Shown: positions 11,604 to 19,678 of the stretch, piece after piece
Layout of the letters: each line of letters begins with the position of its first letter
How positions within the stretch are numbered: position 1 is the first letter of the stretch
From: Moraxellaceae bacterium
GTDB taxonomy: Bacteria; Pseudomonadota; Gammaproteobacteria; Pseudomonadales; Moraxellaceae
Direction: 5' to 3'
DNA: 64,000 nt
Assembly: GCA_030680295.1 (NCBI GenBank)
Contig: JAUXVU010000018.1
Location: forward strand, 248,001-312,000
Program-made: the position numbers and the translations under genes
The notes under the pieces: model-generated
Databases searched by the model: none
Seen by the model: only the letters and a program-made list of their open reading frames with translations
What the model was told of the DNA's origin: nothing

Positions 11604-12905
11604 TCAATCAGTATTTTCAGCCAAGTAAATTTCATGCTGTAATCTTGACCATAAAGGTTTGATTTGCTTTCTTATTGCGCTTGAATTCATTATTTTTGAT
11701 GCTTTTAGTGCATAAGAAATAAAGTTTTTTCTGCCTAAATGTGAATATTTTTTGTATAAAGATTTTTTATAAATATTGGAAGTTTGTTTTCCATTAATTA
11801 ATCTTATTTTATTATGTTTTCTTGCTGTTTGTTTTGCTAGACTCACTCCCGACTTCATTTTCATAGAGTAGCGAGCAAATGCAGCAGATCGTATGATTTT
11901 ATTTTTTCCATCAAAAGTAAACCCCAAATATTGCATGGGTTTTCCAGAAATTACTGAGAGGCTATTATTGGCTTTATGAGAAAATATTGATATTTCTTGT
12001 TTTTTTTGATTTGAGGTTAATCCCATATCTGAAATTTGTGACTCAATTAAATCAAGTAATTCGTTGTACTCTAGTCCGGGTATGATAACAAGTATGTCAT
12101 CACAGTATCTAAAATATTTTCCAGCGCGGCTGTTAACAATATTATTTATTTTTATATCAAAGTCTATCATATAAATATTTGATAGGATGGCGCTTATTGG
12201 TGATCCTTGGGGGATGCCATAATTTTTTTTATTGTTCTCAATAATCCCAGTTGGCCTGATTTTTTTTCTAAAATCACTGGATGAGCATAGTCCATCCCTT
12301 GACTTCGGAGGATTGTTTTTTGAGAGTCCTAAAATATCAAATATTTCTAATCTATCAATATATGAGTACTTAGTAATTGATTTGTATATTGCAAAATGAT
12401 CATCTGGAAGATGATTGCTATTTATTGTGTATGACCATGATTTTTTAAGAAGGTTGTGATCTATATGATCAAAAAAACCAGTAATATCAAGAGCAATAAC
12501 ACAGCAATTGTAATATGACTTGATGCAATCAAAAGCATCATTTGCAAAATTTATGTTTGATTTTTCTAGTTTACGAAAAGCAATTACGCTTTTTTCTAAA
12601 TTATGTTCAGATATTTTTTTCTCATAAAAATCAGACAGGATATATGAGTAATATGAATATATATGAGAGTCTATGTGTGATGCAAAGCGTATGTCTCTAT
12701 TTTTTTTGACAATCGAAAGCTTGCCCGAATCAACATCCTTTTTTACTTTCTGAGAAACTATTTCGTATGAAAGCAATGGGAAAAATGCATGCTTAGCAAC
12801 AGTTGAAGGATTTTTTACAATTTTTGATGCTCTTTCGTACCCGATTGGCTTATCAAAATGTGCATACCCTCGCGACCTAAACCACTTTTCTGGCTTCTTG
12901 GTCAA
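11604..12905 (-). CDS. drt2: DRT2-like defence-associated reverse transcriptase
   Basis: Read from the TTG at 12905 this is a 433-residue RT, preceded by AAAGGAAG 10 bases upstream. The frame stays open to 13187, but that part is the ncRNA region and the sequence there is not RT-like. Motif A is ALDITGFFDHID (D140), motif B IPQGSPIS (231-238), and the catalytic box RYCDD (Y267-D270). The N-terminus has GYAHFDKPI and ASHIDSHIYSYYSYIL, and the C-terminus KKYSHLGRKNFISYALKASK. There is no maturase or HNH domain, so it is not a group II intron RT. Length, the N-terminal block and an upstream hairpin-rich ncRNA fit the DRT2 (UG2) class, which makes concatemeric cDNA during phage infection. The gene is very AT-rich. 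It could be another unknown-group (UG) RT. Confidence 0.68.
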   Translation of the reverse strand: MTKKPEKWFRSRGYAHFDKPIGYERASKIVKNPSTVAKHAFFPLLSYEIVSQKVKKDVDSGKLSIVKKNRDIRFASHIDSHIYSYYSYILSDFYEKKISEHNLEKSVIAFRKLEKSNINFANDAFDCIKSYYNCCVIALDITGFFDHIDHNLLKKSWSYTINSNHLPDDHFAIYKSITKYSYIDRLEIFDILGLSKNNPPKSRDGLCSSSDFRKKIRPTGIIENNKKNYGIPQGSPISAILSNIYMIDFDIKINNIVNSRAGKYFRYCDDILVIIPGLEYNELLDLIESQISDMGLTSNQKKQEISIFSHKANNSLSVISGKPMQYLGFTFDGKNKIIRSAAFARYSMKMKSGVSLAKQTARKHNKIRLINGKQTSNIYKKSLYKKYSHLGRKNFISYALKASKIMNSSAIRKQIKPLWSRLQHEIYLAENTD

Positions 12906-13039
12906 TTTAGTTAGGCTTCCTTTGTTAGTGTTAGCCAAACCGAGGGTGGAAAGAATCCCGGCCATTCTAAAAGCCACCCTCGGCATAACCAAACGTATAA
13001 ACGTCATCCACGTTGAACGTGCGCCGGTACATGCTGGAC

Positions 13040-13165
13040 ATGGTGTATAATGTCTACACGAGGAGAACTGATATGCTAAATATCTTACTCGCCGTGTTTG
13101 TTTGGCTGTCGGTTGGTGCCGGTCTTGAGACCGTTCCGGTTGACATCCATCTACACTTCCCTTAA
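13040..13165 (+). other. Antisense small ORF, candidate repeat unit of a 'neo' gene
   Basis: On the strand opposite the ncRNA, AGGAG (13061-13065) precedes ATG at 13073 by 7 nt. The frame has no stop from 13001 to the TAA at 13163. From 13073 it reads MLNILLAVFVWLSVGAGL then 12 more residues; an in-frame ATG also occurs at 13040. The predicted peptide has one hydrophobic helix. In the genome it is a dead-end mini-ORF. If nucleotides 13040-13156 (117 nt) were tandemly repeated, the frame would never meet a stop, giving a 39-residue repeat protein. This is inference by analogy with DRT2. Confidence 0.5.
13046..13145 (+). promoter_or_regulatory. Split promoter: -10 box before and -35 box after the antisense ORF
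   Basis: TATAAT lies at 13046-13051, about 10 bases before the Shine-Dalgarno. TTGACA, a perfect -35, lies at 13140-13145, downstream of the ORF rather than upstream. No good -35 exists at the normal place. In a tandem repeat of period P the boxes would be P-100 bp apart, so a 117-nt period gives an ideal 17 bp. Confidence 0.5.
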
Positions 13166-13200
13166 GCCCAAGTCTTAAGGCATACATAATGTATCAGTCA

Positions 13201-13590
13201 TGCTCTCAGATTAACAGTGTTTTTTACATTGCAAGTTATATTACACCGTAGCTCTAAATATTTTTTCGTGCTGATCTCAAGCTATTACGTGCTTATACAT
13301 AAGCATTGGATTGAGTTGATTTGTGAACGCCAAATCTCTGCTATTAAAAGTTTTCTTATTAAGAAGTTGTGATGGTTTTTGGCATCCTTAGCTACTTATT
13401 GCTTGCTGAAGTCATGATTTATTGTGGTTAGCATAGATGACAAGTTTTGAGAGTTTTCACGCTGCGGTGTCAACGCAACTTCTAATAAATTTTTTGCTTT
13501 GGAGTAACGAGTAAGAAGATACAGTATGAGTAAGCTTAAACACTGTAGCTTGGTGGCTTTTTGGGCGCCATCATTGCTGTTATTTAACTA
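13201..13590. other. Mostly non-coding stretch between DRT2 ncRNA and next gene
   Basis: AT-rich DNA that should contain the leftward promoter of the ncRNA; TTGCAA followed by TAATCT on the minus strand near 13230-13210 is one possibility, with a short 15-bp spacer. A 21-codon plus-strand frame (13526-13591, MSKLKHCSLVAFWAPS…) ends in TAATG, sharing its A with the start of the next gene, so it could be a translationally coupled leader. Nothing else is seen. Confidence 0.3.
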
Positions 13591-13987: not shown

Positions 13988-14245
13988 TTAAAGTGTGAAC
14001 TCATCGTCCGTGTCCGAGATATGCTCAGGTTGCAATAACCGATACAAATCAATTTCAAGAGCTGCCGCCAGTCTCGTCATGATGAGAAGGGAAGGGTTGC
14101 CAATGCCTCTTTCAATTTGACTCACGAAAGTTCTATCCACATCAGCAACTAAGGCTAATGCTTCTTGAGATAGGCCCAGCATTTTGCGCCGACGCTTGAG
14201 CTGCGCGGCAAAGTTAATAAATGCGGGGGGGATATGCTGTTTCAT
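13988..14245 (-). CDS. XRE-family helix-turn-helix regulator
   Basis: This 85-residue protein is one HTH_3 domain: LKRRRKMLGLSQEALALVADVD is helices 1-2, RTFVSQIERGIGNPSLLIM the recognition helix and turn, and ALEIDLYRLL the last helix. It resembles restriction-controller (C) and phage repressor proteins. It is divergent from a small membrane-protein gene, with a palindrome in the shared promoter region (14268-14280). A second inverted repeat GCTGTT/AACAGC (14236-14251) surrounds its own start codon, suggesting autoregulation. It probably controls island genes, but the targets are inferred. Confidence 0.85.
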   Translation of the reverse strand: MKQHIPPAFINFAAQLKRRRKMLGLSQEALALVADVDRTFVSQIERGIGNPSLLIMTRLAAALEIDLYRLLQPEHISDTDDEFTL

Positions 14246-18343: not shown

Positions 18344-19414
18344 ATGAGACCAAAAACATCAGGTCGTGATTTGCCACCTCGCATGCTACGACGCTCTAAA
18401 AAACTTAAAAACGGAAAGGAATGGTTTTCATACTATTACAACGGTCGAGATGACGACGGTCGAAGAGTTGAAATACCTCTAGGCTCAGATATCAGTGAGG
18501 CAAAAAAACGATGGGCAGAGTTTGAGATGCAGTCCACCCCGCAAAATTCCAAGCAGCTTAATGTTATTTTTGATCGATACATTAAAGAAATTTTGCCCTT
18601 AAAGATGCCACGAACTCAAAAAGATAATCTCGACTGTTTTAAATTCCTGCGTCCTGTTTTTGGTGAAATGCTACTCGAGGATCTTGTTCCTCAGCATTTT
18701 GCGTTATATCGCGATAAACGCTCTGCGAAAGTGCGAGCAAATAGAGAGCTATCACTACTATCACATGTGTTTAATTGCGCCCGTGAATGGGGTTACACCT
18801 GCCGTGATAATCCATCTAGAGGAGTCAGGAAAAATAAAGAGTCTCCAAGAGATTTTTATGTTGATGACGCTGTTTGGGAAGCTGTATATGAGTTTGCTGT
18901 CAATGAGCTAAAGGATGCTATGGATCTGGCCTATCTAACTGGCCAGAGGCCAGCAGACATCCTAAAAATTAGCGTGCGTGATATTCAAGAAGACATACTT
19001 TATGTGCAGCAAGGAAAAACAAATAAAAAATTAAGAATTTTGTTGAAAAACTCAGACGGATCCATGAGTCAATTGGCACAAGTATTAAACAGGATTCGCA
19101 CTCAGCCACGCAAAGTTAGTAGCATTTTCTTGGTCGCAACGCCGTCTGGCGTTCCATTAAACAAAAATATGTTGCGTACTCGATTTGACTCTGCACGGAT
19201 CTTGGCTGCCGCAAATGCTGAGAAAATAGGCACAGAGGAAATGCTTGATCTTGCAAAGCGTATTAAGAGCTTTCAATTTAGAGATATTCGCCCAAAAGCC
19301 GCGAGTGATATGGGTGATCTTGCTGCGGCTAGTAGACTACTTGGTCATACTGAGCAGCAAATAACTAAGAAAGTTTACATTAGAGTAGGGGAGGTAGTTA
19401 GACCAACAAAATAA
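18344..19414 (+). CDS. int: Tyrosine recombinase integrase of the island
   Basis: This 356-residue protein has an N-terminal arm-binding domain (KLKNGKEWFSYYYNGRD, ISEAKKRWAEFE), a SAM-like core-binding domain (about 60-160) and a catalytic domain: R202 in TGQRPADIL, a Lys in the QQGKTNKK beta-hairpin, R316 in RDIRPK, H335 in LLGHTE and nucleophile Y345. In the box-II HxxR position the first residue is Arg (R313) instead of His; related phage integrases with RDLRAKAA show the same, so it is probably active. AGGAGA precedes the ATG. It lies 176 bp from the tRNA attachment site and faces it. Confidence 0.93.
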   Translation: MRPKTSGRDLPPRMLRRSKKLKNGKEWFSYYYNGRDDDGRRVEIPLGSDISEAKKRWAEFEMQSTPQNSKQLNVIFDRYIKEILPLKMPRTQKDNLDCFKFLRPVFGEMLLEDLVPQHFALYRDKRSAKVRANRELSLLSHVFNCAREWGYTCRDNPSRGVRKNKESPRDFYVDDAVWEAVYEFAVNELKDAMDLAYLTGQRPADILKISVRDIQEDILYVQQGKTNKKLRILLKNSDGSMSQLAQVLNRIRTQPRKVSSIFLVATPSGVPLNKNMLRTRFDSARILAAANAEKIGTEEMLDLAKRIKSFQFRDIRPKAASDMGDLAAASRLLGHTEQQITKKVYIRVGEVVRPTK

Positions 19415-19590: not shown

Positions 19591-19646
19591 TGGCGGAAGC
19601 GGTGAGATTCGAACTCACGAACCCTTTCGGGTCGCCGGTTTTCAAG
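19591..19646 (-). repeat. Right attachment site within tRNA-Ser
   Basis: The 56 bases are identical to 2101-2156. Together they define the duplicated core produced by integration. Confidence 0.93.
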
Positions 19647-19678
19647 ACCGGTGCATTCAACCACTCTGCCACGCTTCC
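19591..19678 (-). tRNA. tRNA-Ser (UGA anticodon)
   Basis: This 88-nt gene includes an encoded CCA end. The acceptor stem GGAAGCG/CGCTTCC pairs perfectly, the anticodon stem CCGGT/ACCGG holds the loop CTTGAAA with anticodon UGA, a long variable arm GCGACCCGAAAGGGTTCGT is present as in class II tRNAs, and the T arm contains GTTCGAATC. Its 3' part is the island's integration target and it remains complete after integration. Confidence 0.97.

Follow-up and report, generated by a model that had tools for sequence, protein, structure and literature searches.

The window, by which we mean the whole 64-kb stretch of DNA analysed, carries a gene for a reverse transcriptase (RT) and, directly upstream on the same strand, a structured non-coding RNA (ncRNA) that matches Rfam family RF03016 (Table 1). 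Judged from its sequence, the RT is a DRT2 enzyme, of the same family as the solved KpDRT2. It matches PADLOC Drt2 with an E-value of 7.9e-180, contains a Pfam RVT_1 domain, and in a PDB search matches the solved DRT2 chains 9lje, 9c0i and 9lv7 with E-values of ~1e-131 to 1e-133. The YCDD and ALDxxGFFD motifs align to a PDB DRT2 chain, and both the active site and the reading frame are intact. The start codon is probably the TTG at 12903-12905, with AAAGGAAG upstream. The DRT2 identity put forward in a preliminary description of this DNA is borne out by the agreement of the PADLOC, PDB and RT-12 matches.

Table 1. Features of the DRT2 locus, in window coordinates
Feature	Position	Strand	Basis or remark
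DRT2 reverse transcriptase	11604..12905	-	~433 aa, YCDD active site; PADLOC, Pfam and PDB matches
DRT2 ncRNA 3ʹ scaffold, Rfam RT-12 (RF03016)	12931..13036	-	56.5 bits, gathering threshold 44.2, model 1-117 of 117
Whole ncRNA, approximate inferred ends	12931..13181	-	3ʹ end: RT-12 match; 5ʹ end: position after extended -10 and homolog alignment
ncRNA 5ʹ handle hairpin (SL1)	13160..13180	-	CCTTAAG/CTTAAGG inverted repeat, paired in homolog consensus fold
Weak extended -10 promoter (TGA-TACATT), for ncRNA and RT	13188..13196	-	TGN-TANNNT at equal position in most homologs, by eye
ACA-1 position; ncRNA reads GAU	13149..13151	-	homolog alignment
ACA-2 position; ncRNA reads GCA	13032..13034	-	homolog alignment
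Predicted repeat unit (neo template), 117 nt	13035..13151	+ (antisense to ncRNA)	homolog rule, endless frame
Predicted primer site GACAT, counterpart of KpDRT2 GATAT	13037..13041	+	unit nt 3-7
-10 element TATAAT	13046..13051	+	sequence; perfect in nearly all close homologs
Ribosome binding site AGGAG	13061..13065	+	sequence
neo start codon ATG	13073..13075	+	sequence
-35 element TTGACA, usable across repeat junction only	13140..13145	+	sequence

A covariance-model search of the ncRNA, proposed in the preliminary description, returned the RT-12 match listed in Table 1. The full length of the model matches the 3ʹ scaffold in the window, and the RT-12 consensus has a longer first hairpin in this scaffold than the window has. 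This is the only RF03016 match in the genome, and a scan of 398 genomes of the phylum found no match besides the window; hence, homologs were gathered by RT protein instead. The 5ʹ end of the ncRNA (13115-13182) resembles another family, Rfam RT-6 (RF03027), at 22.8 bits, below the gathering threshold of 46.7. A strict sigma-70 scan found no promoter for the ncRNA itself. In the 5ʹ handle of the homologs, the stretch preceding ACA-1 seems by eye to covary with the one next to the -10 element (TGTC/GACA, TATC/GATA), in line with the template hairpin that has been published. For the window, again by eye, a possible alternative is pairing of the handle GTGTA with TACAC across the -10 element.

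Reading back the coordinates of the preliminary description found TATAAT, AGGAG, ATG and TTGACA where it had placed them, antisense to the ncRNA. The frame of this ATG, said to lack a stop from 13001 to 13163, is open from 13001 to 13162 and closes with a stop at 13163-13165. We conclude that this stretch very probably serves a DRT2 anti-phage system as its template, with 117-nt units and a 39-codon Neo frame. At the level of sequence, the RT, the ncRNA, the template, a split promoter, a ribosome site, a start codon, an endless frame and a conserved geometry are all present. Published KpDRT2 work is our basis for inferring the later steps, in which the template would be reverse transcribed, the second strand made upon infection, the repeats transcribed from the junction promoters and growth arrested by Neo. 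The RT would copy ncRNA bases 13035 to 13151 (plus-strand coordinates) repeatedly into tandem 117-nt repeats. At each junction a spacer of 17 bp would separate TTGACA from the TATAAT that follows it, and double-stranded repeats could thereby be transcribed. The resulting mRNA would carry the ribosome site and the endless 39-codon frame (MLNILLAVFVWLSVGAGLETVPVDIHLDMVYNVYTRRTD), and the Neo protein product would halt the infected cell's growth. The DRT2 neo system is already known (published in 2024); the stretch adds a member in which the usual copy-jump signal is largely missing.

The layout published for KpDRT2 equals that of the window (PMC12039810, PMC11100668). KpDRT2 (Klebsiella pneumoniae, UG2; PDB 9c0i, 9ljf) shares with it the RT family, the upstream ncRNA on the same strand, the inverted -10/-35 pair, the 17-bp junction spacer, the start codon past the -10 element and the endless in-frame unit. 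The KpDRT2 primer site, GATAT (PMC12039810), is similar to GACAT in the window; this position reads GATAT in locus L055 and GACAT in L054. In contrast, the KpDRT2 unit is 120 nt long rather than 117 nt, its RT and Neo sequences are diverged from those of the window, and it has ACA-1 and ACA-2 where the window has GAU and GCA. Close KpDRT2 homologs most often have repeats of 117 nt (PMC12039810, PMC11100668).

RT relatives were drawn from genome contigs, plasmids, the family, order and class of the window, and one E. coli genome; a search of viral contigs found none. We treat as close homologs L054, L055, L002, L003, L056, L063, L051, L004 and L005-L008, with 42-51% RT identity. In the closest dozen, TATAAT and TTGACA (TTGACT in L004) stand in inverted order as in the window, and in the close homologs the spacer across the junction of adjacent repeats is 17 bp at every period: 111 nt in L002, L004 and L051, 117 nt in L063 as in the window, 120 nt in L054, L055 and L056, 129 nt in L003, and 132 nt in L005-L008. 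All these periods are divisible by three, each with exactly one stop-free frame; L052 is the single exception among homologs of similar identity. RT-12 scores above threshold in L063, L051, L002, L056, L003 and L054. The layout is also kept in the more distant L023 and L026, with one -10 mismatch and units of 153 and 150 nt, and in L017, with 129 nt. The tandem-repeat mechanism and 17-bp spacer of the preliminary description are therefore matched by the same architecture in homologs, where the inverted promoter order and the frame, whose conservation it had proposed to check, are kept. Neither of the findings it had named as contrary, stops in every frame and a period not divisible by three, occurs in the close homologs, L052 again excepted.

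L052, on a plasmid of Nitratidesulfovibrio vulgaris DP4 (45% RT identity), has a unit of 145 nt and no endless frame. Upstream of its drt2 gene lie a perfect inverted promoter pair and a CAGT jump match; were a TCAA match used instead, the unit would be 144 nt with a 16-bp spacer, and its single endless frame would be hydrophilic. Either the L052 unit is damaged or it is read differently.

Where would the RT jump? In KpDRT2 the jump takes place between two motifs: ACA-1 is copied last, and ACA-2 adjoins the template on its 3ʹ side (PMC11100668, PMC12039810). In the homologs, the jump match ends 6 nt past TTGACA and 11 nt ahead of TATAAT. The match is TGT in L054, L002, L003, L056, L063 and L005-L008, CAAT in L004, CAGT in L052, AGAT in L023 and L026, and CAATC in L017; it is weaker in L055 (GT) and L051 (T, with one mismatch before it). 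The terminal base of the pair matches in all 13 loci, and the last three bases match at 35 of 39 positions; a 3-nt shift in the direction of the -10 element lowers this to 11 of 39. Since the match is fixed at 6/11 nt in 13 loci, the geometry is constant and the sequence of the match varies. In L004, L017, L023, L026 and L052, the matched pairs are neither ACA nor TGT and stand at the fixed position, as though a change in one copy went with a change in the other.

Applied to the window, this geometry predicts a junction at 13151|13035, a period of 117 and 39 codons. The unit boundaries given in the preliminary description, 13040-13156, are thus moved by 5 nt at unchanged length, and its period of 117 with an endless 39-codon frame agrees with both the homolog junction rule and the junction peptide. 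The predicted window peptide across the junction, VDIHLDMVYNV, aligns without gaps to VDILLDMVYNV in L054, LDILLEMTYNV in L003 and LDILLAMIYNV in L056, which argues for a period of 117 independently of any base match. L054 has a window-like layout, and its VDI-LDMVYNV at the junction is almost exactly that of the window. Other periods tested in the window were 97, 105, 114, 116, 118 and 120. Three of these (97, 116 and 118) break the frame. The other three keep it, 120 doing so from 15 of 17 unit starts, but set the promoter spacer at 5 bp (105), 14 bp (114) and 20 bp (120).

Could it be by coincidence that promoter halves and an open frame lie on the antisense strand of an ordinary ncRNA? An endless frame alone is common, being kept in 2,024 of 5,000 shuffled cores (40%), and the weight of the argument therefore rests on the promoter pair and the homologs. 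A perfect inverted -10/-35 pair 60-145 bp apart occurs once in the 64-kb window, both strands searched, and in 60 of 20,000 dinucleotide shuffles of 12905-13250; the pair together with a period divisible by three at a 17-bp spacer and an endless frame occurs in 3 of 20,000. The pattern also recurs in distant homologs, which in practice refute coincidence, and we give it almost no credence. The hydrophobicity of the predicted protein counts against the neo reading: the GRAVY value of the window Neo frame, 0.75, is no more hydrophobic than the 0.72 of the neighbouring frame 0. A different jump was also suggested in the preliminary description, by way of ACAT repeats (13029/13143) that are indeed present. 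This would give a 114-nt unit of 38 codons, also endless, from the longest exact in-frame match of the template ends except for GACAT at 105. However, the promoter spacer would be only 14 bp, and the match stops one base beyond the -35 element and so falls 5 nt before the point where the homologs have their junction, making such a jump highly improbable. The TCTACAC repeats (13053/13150) that it had also noted are likewise present, and the jump of 97 that they would give is out of frame and off the homologs' junction position.

The window lacks a matching ACA-1/ACA-2 pair, motifs that were defined for KpDRT2 and its close kin. This match is not a family-wide DRT2 criterion, as L004, L052, L023/L026 and L017 lack ACA and keep another match. 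The Escherichia coli N921 system (L063), which has the window layout and also a 117-nt unit, keeps TGT/ACA at the jump, as do L054 and the similarly arranged L003 and L056; the window does not. Its template ends in TCCATC and is flanked by ACATGC, so that C alone matches, or CT with one more base copied; at the equal positions L054 reads TCTTGT and ACATGT. Compared with L054, both ACA motifs carry G in place of the initial A, a joint change that preserves the terminal pair, and their remaining two bases are mismatched. CAT-C and CATGC could pair with one bulged base. A three-base CAT match exists at 118, out of frame. Either the jump in the window tolerates 1-2 bp or bulged pairing, or this copy jumps poorly.

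The latter would be an impaired DRT2 copy, in which loss of the ACA-1/ACA-2 match makes jumping rare or imprecise and yields little Neo. Indeed, KpDRT2 mutants with broken ACA-1/ACA-2 homology lose defence (PMC11100668), the window motifs read GAU and GCA, and the CAT match at 118 would compete out of frame. Nonetheless, we consider impairment unlikely: the RT frame, the -35 and -10 elements, the ribosome site, the start codon and the endless frame are all intact, the otherwise intact L055 and L051 also match weakly, and the terminal base is matched throughout the 13 loci. We tentatively propose, as a possibility that falls somewhat short of probable, a working DRT2 with no need for ACA, in which re-priming at the terminal pair or through bulged CAT-C/CATGC would be guided by ncRNA geometry. 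More generally, the jump signal may be a matched, freely varying short pair located 6/11 nt from the promoter halves.

What is the significance of a DRT2 locus of this kind? The window presents a natural DRT2 whose neo gene would be readable from the genome despite the absence of the published jump motif, and annotation that relies on the motif would pass over it. As a simple rule, neo genes in diverged DRT2 loci can be sought by the fixed 6/11-nt geometry, and the window offers a natural test of the minimal homology for template jumping. In most other relatives (28-44% identity), a convincing promoter pair with a jump match was not recognisable, in agreement with the report that Neo is harder to annotate in divergent clades (PMC11100668). 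An RT tree did not resolve the nearest neighbour of the window, the type of jump motif showed no clear fit to clades in this tree, and no relative close enough to the window copy for a test of purifying selection was found.

The surroundings of the RT gene have features of their own. A small helix-turn-helix protein at 13988-14245 (minus strand) is like the control proteins of restriction-modification systems (PADLOC E-value 5e-14), and no restriction enzyme was recognised beside it among the neighbours scanned. The RT gene, measured over 12001-13000, has a G+C content of 33%, compared with mostly 40-50% nearby; no other part of the window's first 24 kb is as rich in AT, which fits horizontal transfer. 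A phage-type integrase gene (18344-19414, plus strand) adjoins a tRNA gene (19594-19678, minus strand) ~5 kb from the DRT2 operon, which suggests that the operon sits in an integrated island.
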